This document shows, in pieces, positions 3,602 to 19,380 of a stretch of DNA of 64,000 bases. How positions within the stretch are numbered: the stretch's first letter is position 1; each line of letters opens with the position of its first letter. The notes under the pieces were generated by a model, which saw only the letters and a program-made list of their open reading frames with translations, did no database searches and was not told the origin of the DNA. The stretch comes from Rhizobium etli 8C-3. GTDB lineage: Bacteria > Pseudomonadota > Alphaproteobacteria > Rhizobiales > Rhizobiaceae. A program made the translations under genes and the position numbers. Location of the stretch: assembly GCF_001908375.1 (NCBI RefSeq), contig NZ_CP017241.1, positions 1,987,001 through 2,051,000 on the forward strand, read 5' to 3'.

Positions 3602-4627
3602 TCAGAGACCTGGCTGCTTGATATCGCCGAGAATGCTGAGGATCGTCTGCTTGCGGTCGAGGTTGTAAGCGACGGAGATGGCAAGCCGCTCGTTGATATC
3701 CGATTGCAGCCGTGCCATCCGTTCGGCGGCGGAAAGCTCGCCTGCTTGTGCCGCGTCGCGCGCTCGACGCATCAGGTCGTCGCCGACATGGCTCACGAAG
3801 AATTCGAATATCGTTTCGCTATCCTTGCCGGATAAGGCATCTGCCAGACGATGCATTGCCTTTCGAGCCGCCGGGCCTTGAGCCGACAGGACCTCGTTGT
3901 ATGCGGCGATGATCTCGCCTCCCCCGTAGTTCAGGAGCTTCAGCGCCTCCCCGACGCTGCCTTTCGCGAGCGATAACAGCGAGGCATCGCTGCCGGTTAC
4001 GCCGAGATTGGCGAGTGCCGCGCCCAAGGCGATATTATCCAGTGGCGAAAGCCTGAGCGGCAGGCACCGTGAACGGATCGTCGGCAGAAGTTTTCCCGGC
4101 GCATGCGAAAGCACGAGGAAGAGCGCCCGTTTGGGCGGCTCCTCCAGAATTTTCAAGATGGCATTGGCCGCATTGCGGTTCATGTCGTCTGCCGGATCTA
4201 TGATGACGATGCGCCAGTTTCCGGTTCCGGAGGTCTGCGAGAAGAAGCGTCCGGCGCGCCGTACCTCGTCCACCGTGATCGCCGACTTCACCTTGCCTGT
4301 CTTCTCGTCGACGGGACGCGAAAGATAGAGCAGGTTATGCGATGCCCCGGAAGCGATCTGGCGGCTGACGGCAGAGGCCGCATCAGGATCGCCGATCGCT
4401 GCGGGCGCTGTTGCCGGATCGGGATTCGACAGAACGTAGTTTGCAAAGCGAAAAGCAAGCGTTGCCTTCCCGATCCCCTCCGGTCCCTCGATCAGGACTG
4501 CGTGGTGGCCTTTGCCGGAGCGATAGGATTGGGAGAGAAATGCCTGGGCTTCATCATGCCCGAAAAGTTTTGTGTTTTCGGCAGGCCAGATGGCGCCGTC
4601 CAGAAGCCCCGGCCGCTCATCACTCAT
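3602..4627 (-). CDS. holB: DNA polymerase III subunit delta'
   Basis: A 341-aa AAA+ clamp-loader subunit, part of the complex that loads the beta clamp on DNA. A P-loop GPEGIGKAT lies near residue 50, and an arginine-finger-like SRC motif (TIRSRCLPL) follows. The start is placed at [11 protein letters not shown] (4627), which overlaps the end of tmk by eight bases; a frame open further upstream would run deep into tmk. The tmk-holB coupling is typical of alphaproteobacteria and suggests translational coupling. Confidence 0.93.
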
Positions 4628-8607: not shown

Positions 8608-8853
8608 ATGCATATAAACTGGTCGAAGCCGGTAACCCTCGCTCTTGAAGGACCGGACCAATGGGTCGTCATCCATACCACTCAGGCTGCGGCGTGGGCG
8701 TTAATTGAAGACTGGCCCATCGAAGACGGTCCGGCGCTCAACAAGGCATGCGCCGTCTGCGCGGATGTCATGTCCGGGAAACGCAACAGAGAGGAAGCCC
8801 GACAAGCATTTATCGATGCTGCGATCGAGGCCGGAATTCCTATCAAAGATTGA
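8608..8853 (+). CDS. DUF982 domain protein
   Basis: An 81-aa protein of the DUF982 family, which is common in many copies in Rhizobium and relatives and has no known function. The family pattern is visible: an N-terminal strand region (VTLALEGPDQWVVI), an aromatic A-W-A-L-I-E-D-W-P element, then a helical A-C-A-V-C-A-D segment and a closing FIDAAIEAGI. The ATG at 8608 follows GGAAAG. A second DUF982 gene of the same length lies at 13507. No EcfG-type promoter was found for this copy. Confidence 0.8.
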   Translation: MHINWSKPVTLALEGPDQWVVIHTTQAAAWALIEDWPIEDGPALNKACAVCADVMSGKRNREEARQAFIDAAIEAGIPIKD

Positions 8854-9190
8854 GATCGAGCCACGCTCCGTTCATGCTTGAACTCCGGCGTGATGATCTT
8901 GCCGTCAATGTGAGGTGGGAGCGAGTTTGCGGAAATCACTCCTGTCCACAAACGCGATGGCCTTTGCCTCGTGTCGGCCGGACCTCTGCCCTCTTGAAAC
9001 AGGATCCAACTGCTCATGCGTTCATCTTCTGCTTCATTGCGGGATGGGCTGACAGGCAAATGCTGCGGAGCAAGTTGACGCTGCGATCAAAGCTGTTAAA
9101 AAGCCAGCCGTTGAGTGATTGGGTGATAAACAGGTATCTATGTTTTCGAGCTTTCAACAACTGTAGAAAGCTGAACCAAATCAATCAGAC
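8854..9190. other. gap before tRNA-Ser; one repeat and a promoter candidate
   Basis: No coding sequence was recognised. An 18-base stretch at 9014-9031 recurs exactly at 11582-11599, where it forms the -10 region of a small-RNA promoter candidate. Here GAAAC at 8996-9000 precedes CGTT by 18 bases, a poorer match, and no terminator follows. The tRNA promoter candidate is at 9111-9140. Confidence 0.5.
9111..9140 (+). promoter_or_regulatory. possible sigma-70 promoter of tRNA-Ser
   Basis: TTGAGT (9111-9116) and TATCTA (9135-9140) are separated by 18 bases. The predicted start of transcription lies about 40 bases before the mature tRNA. Support is the match to -35/-10 consensus and position only. 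Confidence 0.4.
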
Positions 9191-9280
9191 GGAAGAGTGT
9201 CCGAGTGGTTTAAGGAACCGGTCTTGAAAACCGGCGTGCGGGAAACCGTACCGTGGGTTCGAATCCCACCTCTTCCGCCA
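9191..9280 (+). tRNA. tRNA-Ser (anticodon UGA)
   Basis: A 90-base serine tRNA. The acceptor stem GGAAGAG pairs with CTCTTCC, followed by the discriminator base and an encoded CCA end. The anticodon loop reads CTTGAAA, giving anticodon TGA. A long variable arm (CGTGCGGGAAACCGTACCG) is typical of serine tRNAs, and the T-arm GTGGGTTCGAATCCCAC is complete. An integrase remnant lies 150 bases downstream, so its 3' end was probably used as an attachment site. Confidence 0.97.
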
Positions 9281-9431
9281 TTTGTCTTGTTCAAGTTTTC
9301 CCAACAGTGCCACAAAGCCTTGGAACAAGGTTTTTTCGGCTTTTTCATTGCCACCCTTTCCCGTGCTTTGCCGCTCCACCCCACTAATTTGGGATGCAGG
9401 CGGGGTAGCGAAAGGATTGGTTGGGGGCATC

Positions 9432-9518
9432 ATGCTGACGGATGTCCAAATCAGGAAGGCCAAACCGGCGGACAAGCCTAAGAAACTTCCTGACAGCGGC
9501 GGGCTCTATATCGACTAG
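9432..9518 (+). pseudogene. tyrosine recombinase (P4-type integrase) remnant, first 28 codons
   Basis: The peptide MLTDVQIRKAKPADKPKKLP, continuing D-S-G-G-L-Y-I-D, is the start of the arm-DNA-binding domain (DUF4102) of P4-like phage and island integrases, which are about 400 residues long. The frame stops at TAG after 28 codons and no catalytic domain follows. Position next to the tRNA 3' end is the classic place for such an integrase. I read it as the relic of a lost island or prophage. Confidence 0.75.
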
Positions 9519-9537
9519 ATCATTGAAAGCGAAAAGC

Positions 9538-9569
9538 CGTCGGCATTCGCGCCGACGTCGACGTTTTTT
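9538..9569 (+). terminator. intrinsic terminator
   Basis: Stem CGTCGGC/GCCGACG (9538-9544 with 9551-9557), then TCGACG and a run of six T. It lies just after the integrase remnant, and may end transcripts from the tRNA-Ser side. Confidence 0.5.
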
Positions 9570-9592
9570 CACCTGCCTGTGAGTGCTACCGG

Positions 9593-9931
9593 CTAAAAAT
9601 CGAAATAGAGGGTCACTCCCGACCGCCGATGATAGCCGTAATAGTCAGGATAGCCGCCATAGTACCGAGGGTAGCCATAATACGTCGGATAACCGCGGTA
9701 CCCATATGGGCGATAGTAGCAATTGCCGTAGTAACGGCAGGAACGGTAGGCGTATCGCCGGTTCCAATAGCGATCCGAACGCCAATGACCATGGTGCCGG
9801 TGTTTGACCTGCACCACATCGCCGGTTTGCACTTGTTCTGCTTTCGGCACAAAAACCGGCACGGCGTTTACCGGTAAGGCGAAGAATGCAGCCATGCCTA
9901 CGGCTGCGAGGGCGGATAAGAGCTTTTTCAT
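9593..9931 (-). CDS. secreted tyrosine/glycine-rich protein of unknown function
   Basis: A 112-aa protein with a clear signal peptide (MKKLLSALAAVGMAAFFALP, cleavage after VNA). The mature part has a short charged stretch with KHRHHGHW, then a Tyr/Gly/Arg-rich tail built of short YYG, YGY and YPR units up to the C-terminal LYFDF. Small secreted proteins of this composition are frequent in Rhizobiales; the function is unknown. GGAGGAG lies six to eight bases before the ATG. A promoter candidate lies directly upstream. The strong composition bias makes homology assignment unsafe. Confidence 0.75.
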   Translation of the reverse strand: MKKLLSALAAVGMAAFFALPVNAVPVFVPKAEQVQTGDVVQVKHRHHGHWRSDRYWNRRYAYRSCRYYGNCYYRPYGYRGYPTYYGYPRYYGGYPDYYGYHRRSGVTLYFDF

Positions 9932-9954
9932 CGTGAACTCCTCCTCGCCGACCA

Positions 9955-9983
9955 TCATAGAACCATCGAGCCTGAACCGCCAA
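9955..9983 (-). promoter_or_regulatory. possible sigma-70 promoter of the Tyr/Gly-rich protein
   Basis: On the minus strand TTGGCG (9983-9978) and CTATGA (9960-9955) are separated by 17 bases, close to the rhizobial CTTGAC/CTATAT pattern. The start codon at 9931 leaves a leader of about 17 bases. Confidence 0.45.
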
Positions 9984-10191
9984 TGAACGTTGCGTGTGCC
10001 GCGAACTTTGCGCTTTTTTTGCGGAGTTCGCGCGTCAAAGGCACGCTCGTATCTTGCGATGAGGCCGCGAGGCAACAAAGTTTAATTCAAATGCGTAGGC
10101 CGCATTCGACGGTTTTTGATACTAATGCCGGAAATTTGCCGGCACGTTGATCGAAAGCGCCTTGCGCGGCCTCGGCTGGATTGAACGTTAG

Positions 10192-11163
10192 TCACTCCAC
10201 GAGCAGGGACAAAAGCTTTATCTTTGACATCAGATTGCTAGCAATGAGCGAAGCGATGCTGACAATGATGATTGTGATTAGCACCCGTGCGATGGAAGAC
10301 GGCGCAAAAACGGTTTGAACCAACCACAGGAACAATAGGTGGATACAGTACGATCCGAGCGTCTTCTCGCCAAGCTTCGCAATGGTGTCTGGCACGCGGC
10401 GTTGACAACCAAGGGCCAGAAAAAAAATCCCGACGGCGTAAGGGATGGTTGACATGAAATAATTGATGTCAGTTGTGGGCGGCACTTGGAAATAGCGCCA
10501 CAATAAAAAGCTCTCGAGGCACTGAAGCAGCAATCCGGCCGATGCAATTGCGACAGACTGCTTTATCGTCAACGAAAGGTCGGACTTGCCGATCCAATAG
10601 CCCATCGCGATGAAGATGCAGCCAAAAAACGGTCCGTCGCGGAAGTTCCAGTGTATTGGCCCTTCCATATTCAGTTCCACGAAGGGCACTCCCAGGAAGT
10701 AGAGCAATATACCGGCGACGAGTGCTCCGCTTTTGCCTGACACCTTCAGACAAAGAGCGAATGTGACGGCGCTCACGCCTAAAGACGGCAGGAACCAAAG
10801 ATGGTAAGCGGGAACGCCTTCGACGAGAAGCTGCCGGACTCCCATAATCCCGCTATTGCCAAAAAGGAGTTCATGCGCCAGCAGGTATATGAGCAGCCAT
10901 CCGACAAACACAGGGAGAAGCCGGATAAGATAAAGCTTGGCCACGGGAACCAAGTACAGGGGTTTCCTGCTGAGAAAGTATCCTGCCACAAGAAAGAAAT
11001 AGGGGACTGCGAAACGTGGAACGAGCAAGAAAAACTCTGTTGCACGGGGCCCGATGTAATAGCCGCGCGCGTGAGCTGCGACAACAGCGACAAAGGAGAC
11101 GACCCGAAACAAGTCGATGCCCATATGACGTTTGGGACTCAACACATTCGTTGGCTGGCTCAC
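10192..11163 (-). CDS. acyltransferase family 3 membrane protein
   Basis: A 323-aa integral membrane protein with about ten hydrophobic segments. The N-terminal MGIDLFRVVSFVAVVAAH contains the R and the H near the first helix that are typical of OafA/NodX/OpgC-type acyltransferases, which O-acylate surface glycans or lipids from the cytoplasmic side. The GTG start at 11163 (VSQPTNVL) is chosen because AAGGAG lies eight bases upstream; an internal ATG at 11124 is less well served. It is alone, in an otherwise loosely packed accessory region, with long flanking gaps. The acceptor molecule is unknown. Confidence 0.78.
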   Translation of the reverse strand: MSQPTNVLSPKRHMGIDLFRVVSFVAVVAAHARGYYIGPRATEFFLLVPRFAVPYFFLVAGYFLSRKPLYLVPVAKLYLIRLLPVFVGWLLIYLLAHELLFGNSGIMGVRQLLVEGVPAYHLWFLPSLGVSAVTFALCLKVSGKSGALVAGILLYFLGVPFVELNMEGPIHWNFRDGPFFGCIFIAMGYWIGKSDLSLTIKQSVAIASAGLLLQCLESFLLWRYFQVPPTTDINYFMSTIPYAVGIFFLALGCQRRVPDTIAKLGEKTLGSYCIHLLFLWLVQTVFAPSSIARVLITIIIVSIASLIASNLMSKIKLLSLLVE

Positions 11164-11564
11164 GGCAGGAACTCCTTGGATGCCGATATCGTCGGCCCAA
11201 TCGGCTGAGTCAAAAAATCTGGTTGCGATAGACTGCAGCGCATTCGCTTCGTCTCGGTGGCGCGCCCCGATGCCGGGAAAAGCTCCACTTCGCATGTGCA
11301 ATAACTACCGGAATGCCGTAAAGGTGTCGAGGCCGGATACAACGCTGAGGCGATCTTATATCGCACGCTGCTTTCGTGTCGGTTGATGAAATTGGCTGTC
11401 GTTAGCGGTCATGGGGGGCGCTGGTCGCAACCGGGAACATTCCACCACCTCGGATGTTCGACGGAGTGGATCGCGCAGCCAAGATCTCCTGTAACCGTGC
11501 TCAGCCCTTGCACGAGGCTGTGCGGTCCGCCTCAATTCCTCGGGCATCGGTATGTAAGCGTACA

Positions 11565-11590
11565 GAAACCATAAGCCAGTATCATGCGTT
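11565..11590 (+). promoter_or_regulatory. EcfG-like promoter of a small-RNA candidate (one mismatch)
   Basis: GAAAC (11565-11569), 17 bases, CGTT (11587-11590). Compared with the alphaproteobacterial EcfG/RpoE2 consensus GGAAC-N16/17-CGTT there is one mismatch in the -35 box. Transcription would start near 11597, directly before the hairpin at 11599. Confidence 0.5.
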
Positions 11591-11596
11591 CATCTT

Positions 11597-11661
11597 CTGA
11601 ACGTCTTCCGACGTTCCTCTTCGTCGTCAACAACTAGCCCCGATTTCGTCGGGGCTTTTTT
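11597..11661 (+). ncRNA. candidate stress-induced small RNA, about 65 bases
   Basis: The region reads as a compact non-coding RNA. A perfect hairpin GAACGTC-TTCC-GACGTTC (11599-11616) is followed by a pyrimidine-rich single-stranded stretch CTCTTCGTCGTCAACAACT. An intrinsic terminator then closes it: AGCCCCGA (11636-11643), loop TTTCG, TCGGGGCT (11649-11656), six T to 11661. The predicted start from the EcfG-like promoter falls two bases before the first hairpin. No coding frame fits. I do not recognise a named sRNA family. Confidence 0.6.
11636..11661 (+). terminator. intrinsic terminator
   Basis: A perfect eight-pair stem AGCCCCGA/TCGGGGCT with a five-base loop, followed by six T. It belongs to the small-RNA candidate, since no gene precedes it on this strand. 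Confidence 0.8.
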
Positions 11662-11995
11662 GTCTGAAGGAGCGAATGTGATTATTCGAACATGCCCTGC
11701 GAGTGGTTTGAAGCGATGCACGCGGCGATGGTTCGTTGAACCGTTGCGCTGTCTCGATGCTAGGAAAACCTAGCGATGCCTTTTCTGTCCACACTCGTGG
11801 CAACTCCACAAATGCTCCGACGCTTCCCGCGTCTTTGGCGAGAAGAGACTTCTTCGGCTTCAGAGGAGCCATCAGTCCATTCAGCATTCTTGAAGGGGAA
11901 AACTTGCTCAGTAGCGGTGCACCGGCGTACTATCCACGTTTCGCGAGCCTGCCCCTGCGCTCAGCCGAGGTAGGGCCCGGCGAGGGAGGTTTGTC

Positions 11996-12466
11996 ATGAG
12001 AATTGCATCGATATTCGCGACCGGCTTGATCGGATTATGTGGGATGGCTTCCTTTGCTTCGGCAGGGGGTACGCACACATTGGTCACTCCCGATGATGTG
12101 CAGTGGGGCCAGGCTCCTAAGGTGCTCCCCACCGGAGCAGAAGCGGCGGTCCTGTTCGGCGATCCCAGCAAGGAGGGCCTCTTTGCCCTCCGGATCAAGG
12201 TGCCAGCGGGCTATGCGATCCCGCCGCACACGCATCCTGTGCATGAAGTGGTCACAGTCATGTCAGGGACCATCAATATCGGAATGGGCGAAACCGCCGA
12301 TCCAAGCGCCGCCAAGGCACTGCCTGCAGGCAGTTTCATCGCGTTGCCGCCGGGCACGGCGCATTTTGCTCGCTTCGACGAACCGACGGTCATCCAAATT
12401 ACGACGATTGGGCCATGGGCAATCAAGTATATCAATCCGGCTGACGATCCACAGAAGTCGCAATAG
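11996..12466 (+). CDS. secreted cupin domain protein
   Basis: A 156-aa protein with a signal peptide (MRIASIFATGLIGLCGMASF, cleavage near ASA-GG). A single cupin barrel follows, with IPPHTHPVHEVVTVMSG (two His plus a Glu typical of metal-binding cupin motif 1) and the second motif around PPGTAHFARFDEPT (His). Small periplasmic cupins of this kind are usually metal-dependent or ligand-binding, with unknown substrates. GGGAGG precedes the ATG. It stands alone, with a strong hairpin downstream. Confidence 0.82.
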   Translation: MRIASIFATGLIGLCGMASFASAGGTHTLVTPDDVQWGQAPKVLPTGAEAAVLFGDPSKEGLFALRIKVPAGYAIPPHTHPVHEVVTVMSGTINIGMGETADPSAAKALPAGSFIALPPGTAHFARFDEPTVIQITTIGPWAIKYINPADDPQKSQ

Positions 12467-12491
12467 CCCACCCCTCGGTTAATGGCCAACT

Positions 12492-12516
12492 GCCCCACCG
12501 CCGAGGGCGGCGGGGC
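12492..12516 (+). terminator. GC-rich hairpin after the cupin gene
   Basis: GCCCCACCGCC and GGCGGCGGGGC can form an eleven-position stem with one A-C mismatch around a short loop. No T-run follows, so termination at this site is uncertain. Confidence 0.4.
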
Positions 12517-12778
12517 GTCATTAACAAAAGTTGGCGATAAGGCCATCTCCACCATATCTGTTTTGCTCGCGAATCTGCCTCGGAATTTCGATCGCGGCCC
12601 TTAAGGATGGGCGTTCGCAACAAATCGGCCAGCCGGGATGGGATGGGCTCCAACAAGCTCGTCACAAGTGCGGTTCTAGGCGGCGAACAAAGGGCTGACG
12701 CTCACAAAAAAGTTCAAGAAAGAAATTAGAGACAGGGCCGGGCCACAGGTTCGCGCTGCACTCATTCCGTGCAGCGGA

Positions 12779-12804
12779 GGAACTATATCCTTGCCGGCAG
12801 CGTT
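12779..12804 (+). promoter_or_regulatory. EcfG (RpoE2) general stress promoter of the DUF1236 gene
   Basis: An exact GGAAC (12779-12783), 17-base spacer, CGTT (12801-12804). The CGTT end lies 32 bases before the ATG of the DUF1236 gene. This is the consensus of the alphaproteobacterial general stress response ECF sigma factor. Confidence 0.8.
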
Positions 12805-12835
12805 TTACCGCCACACTGAAATCTTGGAGGATAAC

Positions 12836-13123
12836 ATGAAAAAACTGGTCATCTCTGCCGTATCGCTGTTTCTGTCGCTGGGGGGTGCCGCGGTCGGGCA
12901 GACAGCGACGGTCACCGTTCCCGGCGAGGTCAGAACCTATGTTCTTGAGCAGCAATCGCCGTCGGTCACGTTTGAAGGCGATGTTGCAGTCGGTACGACG
13001 CTTCCTGACACGGTCGAGATCAACACCATCCCCGATCAGCCTGAATACGGTTATGTGGTCGTCAATAAGAAGCGCGTGCTCGTCAATCCCAATACCCGCG
13101 CGGTGATCGAGGTCATCGAATAA
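12836..13123 (+). CDS. secreted DUF1236 protein
   Basis: A 95-aa exported protein: signal peptide MKKLVISAVSLFLSLGGAA with cleavage near VGQ, a middle part with PGEVRTYVLEQ, and a C-terminal DUF1236 element (YGYVVVNKKRVLVNP, then TRAVIEVI). DUF1236 proteins are small periplasmic proteins of Rhizobiales with no known activity. GGAGG precedes the ATG, and an exact EcfG promoter lies upstream. The expected control is therefore the general stress response. Confidence 0.85.
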   Translation: MKKLVISAVSLFLSLGGAAVGQTATVTVPGEVRTYVLEQQSPSVTFEGDVAVGTTLPDTVEINTIPDQPEYGYVVVNKKRVLVNPNTRAVIEVIE

Positions 13124-13506
13124 ATTTGAAGCACTGCGGGCCCCCCACGGGCGGGCCCGCGCTTCCCCCGTGCCAATCCACCAGGGACTATTGCCGGTCT
13201 TGAGAGGCGTATGCCGGCCGCGCTGATGAAGACAGCTCAAAATGGCTACTTTGCGAGCAATGCCGAGAAACACGGGCCGACGTGACTATTTGGGTTTGCA
13301 GTACTGCGCCAGACGTGACGTATCGATGCTCTCAAGGAGAGGCAATTGGCGGCCGAAGAACCTGGTATCCCCTTATTAGCCCTTGGTCGGCGCCTATTTT
13401 ACGATCGGTTACTGAAATCCGTGCCGCCCTGCATTCTGCTACACTCTCTCGCGGAACAGAACTTCATGGCTATCCGTTGAAAGGATCGCCAAGGAGATTG
13501 CACATT
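13124..13506. other. gap between DUF1236 and DUF982 genes
   Basis: A GC-rich inverted repeat GCGGGCC/GGCCCGC at about 13137-13162 may end the DUF1236 transcript; no T-run follows. The EcfG promoter of the next gene is at 13453-13478. Nothing else was recognised. Confidence 0.55.
13453..13478 (+). promoter_or_regulatory. EcfG (RpoE2) general stress promoter of the second DUF982 gene
   Basis: An exact GGAAC (13453-13457), 17-base spacer and CGTT (13475-13478). The CGTT end is 29 bases before the ATG at 13507. Confidence 0.8.
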
Positions 13507-13752
13507 ATGAGCTCGGACATCTGGGAACGCAGCATCGAGTTGATCGACTGCAACGATCATTTCCGCACCGTCAAAAATACAAGAGAAGCCGTTGCGTTTC
13601 TGATGACGTCTTGGCCCGATCATAAGGGGCCTGCATATGCGGCAGCTCGGAAGGCCTGCCTTCGAGCGCTCGAGGGCGAAAAGCCGGAGATAGATCCTCA
13701 GACCGCTTTCATCGCAGCAGCAGCGGAATCCGGAATTTTGAGGGCCAACTAA
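13507..13752 (+). CDS. DUF982 domain protein, stress-promoter copy
   Basis: An 81-aa DUF982 protein, same length as the copy at 8608 but clearly diverged. It keeps the family landmarks: a TSWPDHKGPAYAAARKACL core and the C-terminal FIAAAAESGI. AAGGAG lies about eight bases before the ATG; earlier in-frame starts lack such a site. The exact EcfG promoter just upstream indicates induction in the general stress response. Function unknown. Confidence 0.83.
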   Translation: MSSDIWERSIELIDCNDHFRTVKNTREAVAFLMTSWPDHKGPAYAAARKACLRALEGEKPEIDPQTAFIAAAAESGILRAN

Positions 13753-14108
13753 ATCGCTCATGCAGCGCCCCGGATGCTCATAGATTCCGGCGCACCGACC
13801 GGCGCGATGCGGCCATAGACGTCCTGTGATATGCAAACTCGCACTGCCGGGCGTTCCGGCCTGCCGGGCTCAAATGTCTTTTCTGTCCATAACTCGTGGC
13901 GGACGCTCGCTCCTCTGGGTTTTCAGCAGAAAGCAGACACGCCGAACCCTCCCATATCCCAATATCTTACGATATCCGGTCTCATTGGCGCCCTATAAGA
14001 GTTGTATGTCCTTGAGCGCCTGGCGGGCGCTCGGATTTGAGCGGGTCGTGGCGTCGGCGGGGGCGCAAGCTTCGACCCGCTCTTTCTTTCTATCAACGGA
14101 GCGCGCCC
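13753..14108. other. gap with two hairpins and a dispersed repeat
   Basis: Holds the second copy of the 22/23-base repeat (13878-13900) and the paired hairpins at 14014-14032 and 14039-14082. No coding sequence was recognised. Confidence 0.5.
14014..14090 (+). terminator. double hairpin with T-rich tail, terminator or leader structure
   Basis: The first hairpin is GAGCGCC/GGCGCTC (14014-14020 with 14026-14032). The second is a perfect ten-pair stem GAGCGGGTCG/CGACCCGCTC (14039-14048 with 14073-14082) with a 24-base loop, followed by TTTCTTTC. It could end a transcript from upstream or act as a leader for the 39-aa ORF that begins at 14109. Confidence 0.4.
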
Positions 14109-14228
14109 ATGTTTTGGGATTTCATCACGATCGCAGCGATTTTCGGCGGCTTCTTTCTTGTGCGAGAGGCACAAACCGTGCTCGCGAAAGCCCGCCTGTC
14201 GAACTGGAACAGCTTCACCTTCCGATGA
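14109..14228 (+). CDS. possible small membrane protein, 39 aa
   Basis: The peptide begins MFWDFITIAAIFGGFFLV and then turns polar (REAQTVLAKARLSNWNSFTFR), giving one N-terminal membrane helix and a short basic tail. GGAG lies ten bases before the ATG, and the frame sits just behind a double hairpin. A second frame of 50 codons starts at 14225, overlapping the stop by the ATGA arrangement; it is not supported further. No family was recognised, so this could be a chance frame. Confidence 0.4.
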   Translation: MFWDFITIAAIFGGFFLVREAQTVLAKARLSNWNSFTFR

Positions 14229-14711
14229 AGGACAAGGAAGCGACAGCTGGATTTTCAGGCGCCCGAAAATTGCTCCAATCCTATATCGCTGTGGTTGTGG
14301 TGTCGTTGCTGGGAGAACAGCTCGATCCTCTCAGCGACACCGTTTCCAGTTTTCAGAGTACGACTGGATCGCTGTGAGATCGCAGCTTGGATCACCTCGC
14401 GGTGACGTTATCCACCGGTCGGCATTAAAGGCAGCCGTTTTATCCAAACTTCGCAGTTAACCGCCTGTAATATTTAGCTTGCCCACCAAAGCGAATGATC
14501 TATCCTCAAGAATCACAGGGCTGCGTAGAAATGTGCAACGAGAGTTCGCGAAAGTCGCCGGGTTTTGCAGTTCCTGCCCTCCCCGGCCTGTTTCTTTGTA
14601 GTTAGCTTGTTTATTTCACATACCCGGTAACACTGCCGCTACCCTGATACTGTAAGGAACGTTTCTGCAGGTTTTGCGTTCATTTGTTGCTTCTCTAGGA
14701 GGGAGATCACC
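14229..14711. other. gap before the GlsB/YeaQ gene
   Basis: Apart from the EcfG promoter at 14656-14680 nothing specific was recognised. A 50-codon frame at its left end (14225-14377) lacks support. Confidence 0.5.
14656..14680 (+). promoter_or_regulatory. EcfG (RpoE2) general stress promoter of the GlsB/YeaQ gene
   Basis: An exact GGAAC (14656-14660), 16-base spacer, CGTT (14677-14680). The CGTT end is 32 bases before the ATG at 14712. Confidence 0.82.
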
Positions 14712-14966
14712 ATGGAAGGCGAAGGCGTAGGTTGGATTGCGGCGATTATCATCGGCGGTGTCGCCGGCTGGCTCGCCGAAAAATTCATGCACAGCAATAT
14801 GGGCCTGCTCATGAACATCGTTCTCGGCATTGTCGGCGCGATCGTTGCTAATTTCATTCTCGGCGTACTGAATATCCAGCCGCTCGTAGGCTGGCTCGGA
14901 TACCTGATCACCGGTTTCGTGGGCGCTTGCGTTCTTATTGCGCTCGGACGCCTCGTGCGACGTTGA
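14712..14966 (+). CDS. GlsB/YeaQ/YmgE family stress membrane protein
   Basis: An 84-aa, very hydrophobic, glycine-rich protein with three membrane segments. It has the family pattern GWIAAIIIGGVAGWLAEK near the N-terminus and GIVGAIVANFILG in the middle. Members (transglycosylase-associated family) are widely stress-induced; no enzymatic activity is established. AGGAGGG precedes the ATG. The exact EcfG promoter upstream and a hairpin terminator downstream make it a single-gene stress unit. Confidence 0.9.
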   Translation: MEGEGVGWIAAIIIGGVAGWLAEKFMHSNMGLLMNIVLGIVGAIVANFILGVLNIQPLVGWLGYLITGFVGACVLIALGRLVRR

Positions 14967-15013
14967 TTTAATCGTGGAAAAGCCGGAACTCCCGCTCCAG
15001 GCTAATAAATCGA

Positions 15014-15056
15014 GAGACTGGAACATCGGATATGATGTCCCAGTCTCGTTTGCTTC
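15014..15056 (+). terminator. hairpin terminator after the GlsB/YeaQ gene
   Basis: A fourteen-position stem (15014-15027 with 15034-15047) with one A-C mismatch and a six-base loop, followed by GTTTGCTTCTT. The interrupted T-run makes it a moderate terminator. The DUF883-like gene converges on it from the other side. Confidence 0.55.
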
Positions 15057-15136
15057 TTGCCCGGCCTGAACTTTTGTTCGAAAAAACGCAGAAAGCTTGC
15101 GCGTTTCGGGCTTTTCTTGCGTCGATTGCCGTCGTT

Positions 15137-15418
15137 TCAGCGGCGGCTCATGAGGCCGAAGAGGTAGGCAATGCCAGCGGTTACGGCGAGTGCGAAGATT
15201 GGCTCTTCACGCACTTTCTCGCGCACGCGCTCGGTCAACACTGACGCCTCGTCGGTAACAGCGGTCTTTGCGCCCTGCCCCAAGGCAACGACGCTCTCGG
15301 ACAGCCGTGCCAAATCCTCGCGCAACGCGGTGACTTGAGCCGAAAGATCGTCTGCTGCGATTTCCGCCTTCACGCGGGCGCCCGTGGTTTGTCCGGAGGC
15401 GGTCTTGAGTTCGGCCAT
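15137..15418 (-). CDS. DUF883-like (ElaB/YqjD-type) membrane-anchored protein
   Basis: A 93-aa protein with a polar, helical, probably coiled-coil N-terminal part (LSAQVTALREDLARLSESV) and one C-terminal membrane helix (FALAVTAGIAYLFGLM) ending in SRR. This layout is that of the ElaB/YqjD/DUF883 proteins, which are inner-membrane tail-anchored and stress-induced; in E. coli they associate with ribosomes. GAGGAG precedes the ATG (MAELKTASG). An exact EcfG promoter lies upstream on the minus strand. Confidence 0.82.
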   Translation of the reverse strand: MAELKTASGQTTGARVKAEIAADDLSAQVTALREDLARLSESVVALGQGAKTAVTDEASVLTERVREKVREEPIFALAVTAGIAYLFGLMSRR

Positions 15419-15449
15419 TGTCAGCTCCTCTTTTTGCGGATGCGGCTTC

Positions 15450-15474
15450 AACGACGTGAGGGCCGAAAGGTTCC
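15450..15474 (-). promoter_or_regulatory. EcfG (RpoE2) general stress promoter of the DUF883-like gene
   Basis: On the minus strand GGAAC (15474-15470), 16 bases, CGTT (15453-15450). The distance from CGTT to the ATG at 15418 is again 32 bases. Confidence 0.82.
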
Positions 15475-15636
15475 GTTCACCGCTCCATTTCTTGAACGAG
15501 ATCGCCTTCCAGGACGTTCGCCGGCACCTGCCATGTTTTCGCGCGCGGGCGCTTCATTTCCTTACGCGTTTGTTCTAAGGAACGTCGAAAGCTTTGCCCG
15601 TGAAAGGGCGAAATATAATGCGAGGTTTGCGTTTCG

Positions 15637-17529
15637 ATGTTCCATTTCCTGAGAAGAGCCGCCCGGACCTGGGTTGCCAAGCTCCTGATGCTTCTTCTGG
15701 TCGCTTCATTCGGCGTATGGGGCATTTCCAGTTCGCTGCTCACCGGCAGCAGCAGCACGGCCGTGGTCACCGTCGGTGACCAACAGGTAGATGCCACCGA
15801 ATTCCGCCTTGCCTACCAGCGACAGGTCGCAAGCCTCAGCCAGCAGTTCGGCATGCGTCTAACGCCCGAGCAGGCCAAGGCCTTCGGCGTCGAGCAGCAG
15901 GTGATCGCCCAGCTCGTCGCCGGTGCCTCGCTCGACCAGCTTGCCGCCGACATGAATCTCGGGCTTTCCGAAGATCGCCTCGCCCAGCTGATCGCTGACG
16001 ATCCGGCGTTCAAGGCCGTCAACGGCCAGTTCGATCGCACGCTCTTCACCTCCCGCTTGCGCAACGCCGGCATCCGTGAGGCGGACTATATCAGCGAGCG
16101 TAGCAAGGTCGCCGTGCGCAGCCAGATCGTCGATGCGGTGTCGAACGGCTTTATCGCTCCAAAAACGCTCGTCGACGCGCTGAAGCTCTACCGTCAGGAA
16201 AGCCGCGACATCGACTACTTGCTGCTGACGAACGCGAACATCGAGCCTATCAAGGCGCCGGGCGATGATGTGCTTTCAAAGTGGTTCGATGGCGTCAAGA
16301 GCCGCTACCGCGCGCCGGAATATCGCAAGATCGCCTATCTGAAGCTCGAACCTGCCGACATTGCGGATGCCTCGACCGTCACGGACGATCAGATCCGCGA
16401 GGATTTCGACAAGCGCAAGGACAGCTATCGCACGCCGGAGACGCGCACGATCGAGCAGCTGACGTTTGCCAGCAAGGATCTGGCGACTGCTGCCGAAACG
16501 GCGCTCAAGAGCGGCACCGGCTTCGACCAGCTCGTGACCGACCAAGGAAAGACGGCAAGCGACGTGCTGCTTGGCGATTTCACGAAGGACAAGGTTCCGG
16601 ATCAGGCCATCGCAGATGCCGCCTTCGCAGTCGCCAGGGACGGCGGCACGACGCCGGTCGTCGAAGGCTCCTTCGGCCCTGTTATTCTCCGCGTCTCCAA
16701 CATCAAGCCGGAGAGCGCCAAGAACTTCGACGAGGTGAAGGAAGACATCCGCAAGCAGTTGGCTCTTGTCAACGCATCGCAGGAGGTGATCAACGTGCAC
16801 GATCGCATCGAGGATTTGCGCGGCTCCGGCCAGACACTCGAGCAGATTGCCGATCAACTGAAGCTGAAGGCCGTCGTGATCGATGCCGTCGATCCGAGCG
16901 GGTTGGACAAAGACGGTAACGAGGTCAAGGACGTCCCTGCCAAGCCGCAGTTGATCGGCGAAGCCTTCAAGACCGAATCCGGCGTTCAGCCGCCGGCACT
17001 GTCACTCGGCAATGACGGTTATGTCTGGTTTGACGTGCGCGAGATCATACCGGAGCGCGATCGCCCGCTAGCCGAAGTGCGCGACAAGGCCGTGCAGGAT
17101 TGGACCGCCGAACAGCAGAAGCTCGAACTTGCCAAGAAAGCTGGAGAGCTGAAGCAGGAAGCGCAGAAGGGCAAGACGCTAGCCGACATCGCAGCTCCGC
17201 TCGGCATTGCCGTCGAAAGCAAGAGCGGCATAACGCGCGGCACCGAGGACGCCGTTCTCGGCCGCGCCGGCGTGACCGCTGCCTTCTCGGGTCCGGTCGA
17301 TACGGTTGCAAATGCCGTTGGCGGCGATCCCGGCACGCAGATCCTTTTGAAGGTAACGAGCGTCAACGCAGAACCGACCGGCGATGTGCTGAACAATCAG
17401 GATGCGCAGATCACTGCCATGGCAAACGCTGCCGGCGACGATATTCTCGACCAGATGGTGAACCTGCTGCAAACGCACTACGGTGCGTCGATCAACCAGA
17501 CGCTCGCCGATCAGGCAGCCGTTCGCTAG
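15637..17529 (+). CDS. ppiD: peptidyl-prolyl isomerase, PpiD/SurA type
   Basis: A 630-aa inner-membrane-anchored periplasmic chaperone. A single membrane helix lies near residues 12-34 (AKLLMLLLVASFGVWG), followed by a SurA_N-like helical domain, a parvulin-like domain in the middle (around TPETRTIEQLTF to SFGPVILRVSNIKPE) and a C-terminal helical region. It helps fold exported outer-membrane and periplasmic proteins. The parvulin active-site residues are poorly conserved, as in many PpiD proteins, so isomerase activity is uncertain. It is the first gene of the unit that continues with trpD 12 bases downstream. Confidence 0.88.
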   Translation: MFHFLRRAARTWVAKLLMLLLVASFGVWGISSSLLTGSSSTAVVTVGDQQVDATEFRLAYQRQVASLSQQFGMRLTPEQAKAFGVEQQVIAQLVAGASLDQLAADMNLGLSEDRLAQLIADDPAFKAVNGQFDRTLFTSRLRNAGIREADYISERSKVAVRSQIVDAVSNGFIAPKTLVDALKLYRQESRDIDYLLLTNANIEPIKAPGDDVLSKWFDGVKSRYRAPEYRKIAYLKLEPADIADASTVTDDQIREDFDKRKDSYRTPETRTIEQLTFASKDLATAAETALKSGTGFDQLVTDQGKTASDVLLGDFTKDKVPDQAIADAAFAVARDGGTTPVVEGSFGPVILRVSNIKPESAKNFDEVKEDIRKQLALVNASQEVINVHDRIEDLRGSGQTLEQIADQLKLKAVVIDAVDPSGLDKDGNEVKDVPAKPQLIGEAFKTESGVQPPALSLGNDGYVWFDVREIIPERDRPLAEVRDKAVQDWTAEQQKLELAKKAGELKQEAQKGKTLADIAAPLGIAVESKSGITRGTEDAVLGRAGVTAAFSGPVDTVANAVGGDPGTQILLKVTSVNAEPTGDVLNNQDAQITAMANAAGDDILDQMVNLLQTHYGASINQTLADQAAVR

Positions 17530-17541
17530 GAGCTGTAGCGC

Positions 17542-18558
17542 ATGACCGATCTGAAGCCTCTTTTGGCCAAGGCTGCGAGTCGCGAGCCTCTGACCCGTGA
17601 CGAGGCCCGCGAGGCCTTCGAAATCCTGATGTCCGGTCAGGCGACTCCTTCGCAGATCGGTGGTTTCTTGATGGCGCTGCGCGTCCGCGGCGAGACGGTC
17701 GATGAAATCGTCGGCGCTGCGACGACCATGCGCTCGAAGATGCTGCGGGTGGAAGCGCCTGCCGATGCGATGGATATCGTAGGCACCGGCGGTGACGGCA
17801 GCGGCACCTACAATATTTCGACGCTGGCGGCGCTGATCGTCGCGGGCGCCGGTGTTCCGGTCGCCAAGCACGGCAACCGGGCACTGAGTTCGAAATCGGG
17901 AGCCTCCGACAGTCTGGCAGCTCTGGGCGTCAAGCTCGAGATTGCGCCTGAAGTGATTACGCGATGCATCACCGAGGCGGGTGTCGGCTTCATGTTTGCC
18001 CAGCAGCACCATTCGGCGATGCGCCATGTCGGGCCTTCCCGCGTCGAGCTTGGGACCCGGACGATCTTCAACCTTCTCGGGCCGCTGACGAATCCGGCCG
18101 GAGTGCGCCGTCAGCTACTCGGTGTCTTTGCGCCGCAATGGGTCGTGCCTATCGCTGAGGTGATGCGCGACCTCGGTTCGGAGAGCGTCTGGGTCGTGCA
18201 TGGTGATGGCCTCGATGAAATCACCACCACTGGCAAGACCAGCGTAGCCGCGCTTGAAAACGGCAAAATCCGCACCTTCGAGCTTTCTCCAGCGGATTTC
18301 GGAGTTTCACCCTGTGCACTTGCGGCGATCAAGGGCGGCGATGGCGTCGCCAATGCTGCAGCACTTCGCGAAGTGCTGAGCGGTGCGAGGAATGCCTATC
18401 GCGATATCGCCCTTGTCAATGCGGCTGCCTCGCTCGTCATTGCCGGCAAGGTAGAGACGATCGCCAACGGCATGACGCTCGCGACCGAATCGCTCGATAG
18501 CGGCGCGACCGCCGCAGCCCTCGATAAACTGATCGCCGTTTCGAACGATATCGACTAG
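17542..18558 (+). CDS. trpD: anthranilate phosphoribosyltransferase
   Basis: A 338-aa enzyme joining anthranilate to PRPP in tryptophan biosynthesis. Landmarks are the PRPP motif [14 protein letters not shown] near residue 80, [12 protein letters not shown] near 108, and the metal-binding DGLDEIT. Length is standard. It is separated from ppiD by 12 bases and from trpC by 9, so it is part of the ppiD-trpD-trpC-moaC-moeA operon. Confidence 0.97.
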
Positions 18559-18567
18559 GATTGGCCG

Positions 18568-19380
18568 ATGACCGATATCCTGAAAAAGATTGAGACCTAC
18601 AAGCGCGAGGAAATCGCCGCCGCCAGGGCGAAGGTTTCCCTTGCCGACTTGAAGGCGATGCAGGCAGGCAAAACCGCGCCGCGCGGCTTTCATAAGGCTC
18701 TCGTTGCCAAGCGCGATGCCGGACTTTACGGCCTGATTGCCGAGATCAAGAAGGCAAGCCCTTCTAAGGGTCTCATCCGCCCGCATTTCGATCCGCCGGC
18801 GCTCGCCAAAGCCTATGAAGCCGGCGGTGCCGCGTGCCTGTCCGTCTTGACCGACACGCCAAGCTTTCAAGGCGCGCCCGAGTTCCTGACGACTGCACGC
18901 GAAGCCTGCTCCCTTCCGGCCCTGCGCAAGGATTTCATGTTCGAGACCTACCAGGTGCACGAGGCACGCGCCTGGGGCGCGGATTGCATCCTGCTGATCA
19001 TGGCCTCGCTTACTGATGACGAGGCTGAACGGCTGCAAGATGAAGCCTTTGCGCTGGACATGGACGTGCTGGTCGAAGTGCATGACGCCGCAGAAATGGA
19101 GCGGGCGCTGAAGCTCTCCTCACCGCTCGTTGGCATCAACAACCGCGACCTGCGCACCTTCAAGGTCAGCCTGAACGTCAGCGAAGAGCTTTCGGCGATG
19201 GTGCCGGAGGACCGGCTGCTGGTCGGCGAAAGCGGCATCTTCACGCATGCCGACTGCAAGCGGCTGCGGGCGGCCGGCATCAACACCTTCCTCGTCGGAG
19301 AAAGCCTGATGCGCAAGGATGACGTGACGGCTGCGACCCGCGCTCTGCTCTTCGGCGAAGCGGCAATCGCGGCGGCGTGA
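18568..19380 (+). CDS. trpC: indole-3-glycerol phosphate synthase
   Basis: A 270-aa TIM-barrel enzyme that closes the indole ring of CdRP in tryptophan synthesis. The active-site segments [13 protein letters not shown] (catalytic Lys), [11 protein letters not shown] and [10 protein letters not shown] are all present. It is a stand-alone enzyme, not fused to trpF. The stop is one base before the moaC start codon, suggesting coupled translation with moaC. Confidence 0.97.

Follow-up and report, generated by a model that had tools for sequence, protein, structure and literature searches.

General stress promoters of the sigma-EcfG type have been described in Rhizobium etli, where the EcfG1 motif GGAAC-N16-CGTT stands before 19 of the 56 transcription units that are down in an ecfG1 mutant, and where the ReC64 start determined by 5' rapid amplification of cDNA ends agrees with that motif (PMC3892343). 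In Sinorhizobium meliloti, 150 of the 202 genes induced through the related sigma factor RpoE2 have no predicted function (PMC3616915). Small membrane proteins under stress sigma factors have also been reported from other bacteria. In Escherichia coli, ElaB and YqjD are absent without RpoS, YqjD binds ribosomes, and ElaB, an RpoS-dependent inner membrane protein, protects against oxidative stress (PMC6389858). In Pseudomonas aeruginosa, AlgU, a sigma factor of the envelope stress response, controls the DUF883/YqjD-like gene PA3040 (PMC11302039), and a GlsB/YeaQ gene of Pseudomonas fluorescens is down in an RpoS regulon table (PMC6372562). Here we analyze a stretch of 64,000 nucleotides from Rhizobium etli 8C-3 (contig NZ_CP017241.1, positions 1,987,001 to 2,051,000 of the forward strand; hereafter the window), in which four small genes of the DUF1236, DUF982, GlsB/YeaQ and ElaB/YqjD/DUF883-like families form an islet, each behind a box of this kind. 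On the basis of sequence comparison, we consider it very probable that each of the four boxes is a genuine sigma-EcfG (RpoE2-type) promoter serving a single small gene, and that ordinary members of the regulon have gathered locally in the islet, which is no dedicated operon or machine.

A preliminary description of the window had listed four exact GGAAC-N16/17-CGTT boxes (hereafter strict boxes), and their coordinates and strands are right (Table 1); a scan of all 64,000 nucleotides returned these four and no further exact match, as it had also stated. It had called their geometry identical and the short leaders near-identical; the geometry is not identical, the spacer being N17 before the DUF1236 and DUF982 genes and N16 before the GlsB and DUF883-like genes. 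The distances it gave from CGTT to ATG (32, 29, 32 and 32) are correct when counted to the A of the ATG, the intervening bases numbering 31, 28, 31 and 31. Because boxes of the EcfG class in R. etli sit about 16-50 nucleotides ahead of the ATG (PMC4167512), near-identical short leaders are normal for the regulon.

Table 1. Promoters and genes of the islet, in positions of the window.
Feature	Position	Strand	Evidence
EcfG-type promoter of DUF1236 gene	12779..12804	+	exact GGAAC-N17-CGTT, 31 bases to ATG, Shine-Dalgarno sequence present
DUF1236 gene, 95 amino acids	12836..13123	+	PF06823, 73.3 bits vs cut-off 32.4
EcfG-type promoter of DUF982 gene	13453..13478	+	exact GGAAC-N17-CGTT, 28 bases to ATG, Shine-Dalgarno sequence present
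DUF982 gene, 81 amino acids	13507..13752	+	PF06169, 59.1 bits vs cut-off 22.2
EcfG-type promoter of glsB/yeaQ gene	14656..14680	+	exact GGAAC-N16-CGTT, 31 bases to ATG, Shine-Dalgarno sequence present
GlsB/YeaQ/YmgE family small membrane protein gene, 84 amino acids	14712..14966	+	PF04226, 49 bits vs cut-off 25.3
ElaB/YqjD/DUF883-like gene, 93 amino acids	15137..15418	-	family by orthologs
EcfG-type promoter of DUF883-like gene	15450..15474	-	exact GGAAC-N16-CGTT, 31 bases to ATG, Shine-Dalgarno sequence present

The assignment of these boxes to the EcfG/RpoE2 type, also made in the preliminary description, is well supported by sequence. We read them as sigma-EcfG promoters because they are exact, are suitably placed before start codons, are followed by a Shine-Dalgarno sequence ahead of the ATG in all four genes, and are conserved (fully for one gene, partially for the others), and because the genome encodes both PhyR and an EcfG-like sigma factor and the motif is the one known from R. 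etli. It is the ATG spacing, the Shine-Dalgarno sequence and the conservation, not the box alone, that make the four window boxes stand out. Across the genome of 7.31 Mb, 44 strict boxes have an ATG 24-34 bases downstream, about 26 being expected from the frequency of ATG in the window (p 3e-4), and all four window sites are among them. With a Shine-Dalgarno sequence added, 28 sites are found and about 2 are expected from the ATG and Shine-Dalgarno frequencies measured in the window.

Conservation was followed through relatives of GlsB. A protein scan found 114 of them, and the best 80 of the 114 loci, which contain 82 GlsB matches, were analyzed; many of these 80 are close relatives and not independent. 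GlsB, the DUF883-like gene, surA and trpD occur together in 28 of the 80, the first two as a convergent pair beside surA-trpD, and the upstream reach of these syntenic loci is about 6 kb (2 kb in locus L035). The closest named relatives at the locus are Rhizobium mongolense USDA 1844 and R. mongolense subsp. loessense, with GlsB 96% and 95%, respectively. The DUF883-like gene has exact boxes in every one of the 28 syntenic loci, 29-31 bases ahead of the ATG, and its promoter spacer drifts in sequence, and between N16 and N17, while the boxes stay. Strict boxes precede GlsB in 7 of the 28 and DUF982 in loci L031 and L032, the two syntenic relatives with a DUF982 gene; in these two the DUF982 spacer is N16 instead of N17. 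Among all 82 GlsB matches, 33 have a strict box within 300 nucleotides upstream, when the genome rate predicts about 0.003 per gene; in 32 of the 33 the distance from box to start is 32-63 bases, the start being extrapolated for matches that missed residue 1. The boxed matches include Palleronia, Paracoccus, Wenxinia and Hoeflea, and some are distant Rhodobacteraceae. The two other PF04226 copies in the R. etli 8C-3 genome (C1:1874407-1874813) have no box close to a start; the closest box lies upstream of the first copy and ends 327 bases from its nearest in-frame ATG.

The paralogues tell more about the other two families. A strict box was scored up to 500 bases upstream of the domain; in the R. 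etli 8C-3 genome, every boxed copy of DUF1236 and DUF982 has an in-frame start behind its box. The genome has six copies of DUF1236, five of them boxed, the window copy included. Twenty-nine further loci of DUF1236 and as many of DUF982 were drawn from 40 genomes of the genus, high-scoring ones only from among many more matches; the box is present at 18 of the 29 DUF1236 loci (17 with an in-frame start) and at 5 of the 29 DUF982 loci (4 with an in-frame start). Antisense and downstream controls for the DUF1236 and DUF982 boxes gave 0 of 79 loci. Because of the boxes on five of six genome copies and 18 of 29 further loci, with none in the controls, DUF1236 looks like a regular output, and a hallmark stress family, of the EcfG regulon. 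DUF982, with strict boxes on 4 of its 15 genome copies (again counting the one in the window), looks like only partly a regular output. A second DUF982 gene lies in the window at 8626-8838, about 4 kb upstream of the islet, and has no strict EcfG box.

The presumed regulators are encoded in the same genome. A sigma factor (Sigma70 r2/r4), PhyR and a HWE histidine kinase lie together, by Pfam match, at G000:C1:2.912-2.916 Mb; we call the sigma factor EcfG-like from its position next to PhyR, and a NepR-like frame can be seen by eye between the two. This ecfG-phyR locus holds its own foursome of strict boxes in 4.46 kb. One box in this region (G000:C1:2906000-2920000, locus L141) precedes, by about 110 bases, a small protein that matches DUF883_C weakly (19.9 bits, cut-off 27); a holin-like frame, recognized by eye, follows, and the two form a second candidate YqjD/YqjE-like pair. 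In the genome, 17 of 61 frames downstream of boxes were picked as likely genes and scanned, two of the 17 giving no match. The families found behind the box are catalase, Cu/Zn superoxide dismutase, CsbD, PRC-barrel, DUF892, DUF1328, DUF2934, DUF3606, DUF4174 (two), an AI-2E family transporter and two alpha-amylase-family enzymes, which is, judged by family membership, the profile of a general stress regulon. The literature searched, supplementary tables being outside the search, gave no direct report tying DUF1236, DUF982, DUF883 or transglycosylase-associated proteins to EcfG or PhyR. The nearest link is an array study of Bartonella quintana, in which phyR and a DUF883 gene are both in the temperature-responsive list (PMC3595295).

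The family labels of the preliminary description largely hold. DUF1236, DUF982 and GlsB/YeaQ pass the Pfam cut-offs. The label DUF883-like is correct in kind: DUF883_C is matched by 6 of 14 orthologs (best E 9.5e-6), and many relatives are annotated as ElaB/YqjD/DUF883 family at source. For the window protein, no DUF883 model gave a match at E up to 10. By eye, this protein has a C-terminal membrane anchor. GlsB is an inner membrane protein by family; against NCBIfam PRK10457, a narrower model, it scores 21.9 with a cut-off of 129. No solved structure came below E 0.05 for either GlsB or the DUF883-like protein. The DUF982 product looks cytosolic and is modeled as a small domain of a beta-hairpin plus three helices (predicted local distance difference test, pLDDT, 85.8). 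Its profile matches the solved structure 2kpq (Atu1219) with E 1.3e-14; a function could not be taken from the fold, the sole standout being itself uncharacterized.

The N-terminus of the DUF1236 product resembles a signal peptide by eye, and the protein is probably periplasmic. Its model is modest (pLDDT 71.7). The top three solved structures in Foldseek are two chains of CigR and 2l1s (YohN), with template modeling (TM) scores of 0.36-0.43 and no E below 0.001, and VIA-align places YohN first and CigR third, tied with unrelated chains. We take YohN to be RcnB, and CigR to bear an RcnB-like domain. Searched against the sequences of the PDB, the DUF1236 profile finds CigR as its best match (E 0.17) and the RcnB profile finds YohN (E 0.054); compared profile against profile, DUF1236 and RcnB reach a probability of 10%. 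With such weak profile and structure scores, RcnB was not accepted as a firm family for DUF1236 and is retained as a lead. In Rhizobium phaseoli, one of the three genes that aluminium induces most strongly is a DUF1236 gene (PMC8909678). One may speculate, tentatively, that DUF1236 is a hallmark rhizobial stress output, a small periplasmic domain with a distant relationship to RcnB/CigR, which would protect the envelope from metal (e.g., aluminium) or oxidative stress and has been copied repeatedly about the genome with its own EcfG promoter, the islet being a gathering of such cassettes beside the GlsB and ElaB/YqjD-like pair.

Several observations weigh against reading the four boxes as promoters of ordinary regulon members. 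The bare motif is at chance frequency in the genome, where it occurs 164 times and the reversed pattern, used as a control, 191 times, and was dropped as evidence on that count; the whole-genome scan proposed in the preliminary description thus half bears out its own reservation that the motif might be frequent near random genes. The reversed control flatters the counts of boxes followed by an ATG, GTA being three times rarer than ATG: it yields 13 sites genome-wide against the 44, and in 100 of 100 sampled genomes of the genus the count of boxes followed by an ATG exceeds it (4,231 against 803 in total), a result that speaks for the promoters subject to the same caveat. As the sole control it was dropped as too flattering and replaced by the ATG and Shine-Dalgarno frequencies of the window. 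No clear ATG peak follows the first 30 strict sites, taken unselected, which is the expected outcome if most strict sites in the genome are chance matches, as they probably are. GlsB is without an exact box in 21 of the 28 syntenic loci, five of these having GGAAC with a CATT -10 and the rest a degraded box or none; 11 of the 15 DUF982 copies in the genome are without a box; neither of the two syntenic loci that have DUF1236 has a boxed copy; and the four-gene arrangement is, across the loci compared, not conserved. The looser pattern GGAAC-N15/18-GTT occurs 10 times in the window (expectation 5.5), a count attained in 8 of 100 shuffles. Dinucleotide shuffles of the window (n=100) hold 1.13 exact boxes on average, and 4 of the 100 reach four; together with the chance frequency of the bare motif, this would favor the explanation that one or more of the boxes are no promoters. 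Against that stand the start-codon geometry, the Shine-Dalgarno sequences, the conservation and the paralogue enrichment, and we regard it as highly improbable. Its best case is the DUF1236 box, which has no syntenic boxed counterpart, yet four of the five other genome copies of DUF1236 are boxed.

The islet had been taken in the preliminary description for a four-gene stress unit, and it might be a true functional module, in which the four proteins jointly protect the envelope and the neighborhood is kept for shared work. The four sites span 2,671 bases, a tighter foursome than any other among the chromosome's 97 strict sites (p 0.003 when all 97 are placed at random, 2e-5 when the 29 sites with ATG geometry are), and three of the four products are predicted to be membrane or periplasmic proteins, a location from which a role in envelope protection is plausible for these three. 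The RpoS-dependent, oxidatively protective ElaB (PMC6389858), PA3040 under AlgU (PMC11302039), the GlsB/YeaQ gene of the P. fluorescens RpoS table (PMC6372562) and the aluminium-induced DUF1236 gene of R. phaseoli (PMC8909678) are consistent with such a module. However, only GlsB and the DUF883-like gene are kept as a pair (28 loci), and most DUF1236 and DUF982 copies sit elsewhere in the genome. Over the upstream reach given above, DUF982 and a DUF1236 stretch are found near the pair in just two of the 28 loci (L031 and L032), the latter on the opposite strand and boxless in both. In L031 (R. mongolense USDA 1844, 3662-3910) the DUF1236 segment, which starts at about residue 18-20, is inverted, cut from its promoter and abuts the DUF982 promoter; the copy in L032, also on the opposite strand, is more diverged (45% over residues 19-95). 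By this comparison the widely shared core is only the GlsB and DUF883-like pair beside surA-trpD, and the four-gene islet looks young and unstable, because its other two genes are near the pair in so few loci and DUF1236 is inverted there. With a set that is not conserved and a short leader that is general to the regulon, the case for a four-gene unit is weak, and we think a joint module unlikely. Another possibility is that the boxes belong partly to a different extracytoplasmic function (ECF) sigma factor of overlapping specificity, EcfG2 or RpoE6-like. The genome has eight PhyR_sigma2-type matches, among them PhyR and the EcfG-like sigma factor, the rest being sigma-like candidates; R. etli has both EcfG1 and EcfG2 (PMC3892343), and 27 of the 40 targets of RpoE6 in S. 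meliloti are shared with the RpoE2 regulon (PMC6180224). This seems distinctly improbable, as the motif is on just 1 of 19 EcfG2-dependent units in R. etli (PMC3892343).

If the four boxes act as separate sigma-EcfG promoters, PhyR would free EcfG from NepR under osmotic, oxidative, heat or starvation stress, and EcfG-RNA polymerase would start transcripts a few bases past CGTT, giving leaders of roughly 20-25 nucleotides. The products would then go to separate compartments: DUF1236 to the periplasm, DUF982 to the cytosol, and both GlsB/YeaQ and the ElaB/YqjD-like protein, the latter through a C-terminal anchor, to the inner membrane. DUF982 and DUF1236 may have joined the GlsB and DUF883-like core in the R. 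mongolense-like lineage.

Other elements were noted around the islet. An EcfG promoter for surA was considered and rejected: GGAAC is conserved upstream in all 29 sequences of the alignment, as GGAACG in 28 of them, yet none of the 29 has CGTT at N16-17 on the same strand. The conserved block upstream of surA, at 15541-15600 (CTTCATTTCC ... TTTGTTCTAAGGAACG), may be a sigma-70-type promoter, and the GGAACG inside it is no EcfG box. At 13950-14230 there are two strong GC-rich hairpins and a T-run, then a 39-codon frame from the ATG at 14109. This block is highly conserved in the loci of R. mongolense, R. mongolense subsp. loessense and R. sullae; it is present in 0 of 40 other related genomes searched (24 of the same genus), matches no Rfam family and has a fold z-score of -1.28. 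The interval 14245-14376 is a remnant of a longer coding-looking stretch, which is present in L031 and largely in L032 and of which the window misses several hundred bases. Rfam over 9,000-19,000 of the window gave a tRNA at 9191-9277, other matches being under the gathering scores.

Compared with known systems, the islet is closest to the R. etli EcfG1 (RpoE4) regulon, with the same boxes, the same spacing and the same genus, and with PhyR and an EcfG-like sigma factor in one locus here too; the excerpts of that literature, supplementary tables being outside the search, do not describe an islet of these four families. The S. meliloti RpoE2 regulon has the same promoter type, and small unknown proteins are the rule in it. 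The islet provides four families of unknown or poorly known function with a regulatory assignment that is specific and can be tested; DUF1236 especially looks linked to this type of regulon within the genus Rhizobium. The ElaB/YqjD-like gene resembles E. coli ElaB/YqjD under RpoS and P. aeruginosa PA3040 under AlgU, as excerpted, in being a small membrane protein under a stress sigma factor; it differs from them in the sigma factor, and its product matches no Pfam DUF883 model. The window GlsB passes the Pfam cut-off of the GlsB/YeaQ/YmgE stress proteins (PF04226), to which the P. fluorescens protein of the RpoS table belongs, and is probably under alphaproteobacterial sigma-EcfG control instead of RpoS. 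GlsB and the ElaB/YqjD-like protein under probable EcfG control parallel the RpoS and AlgU control seen in gammaproteobacteria, a hint that unrelated stress sigma factors came to drive the same membrane proteins.

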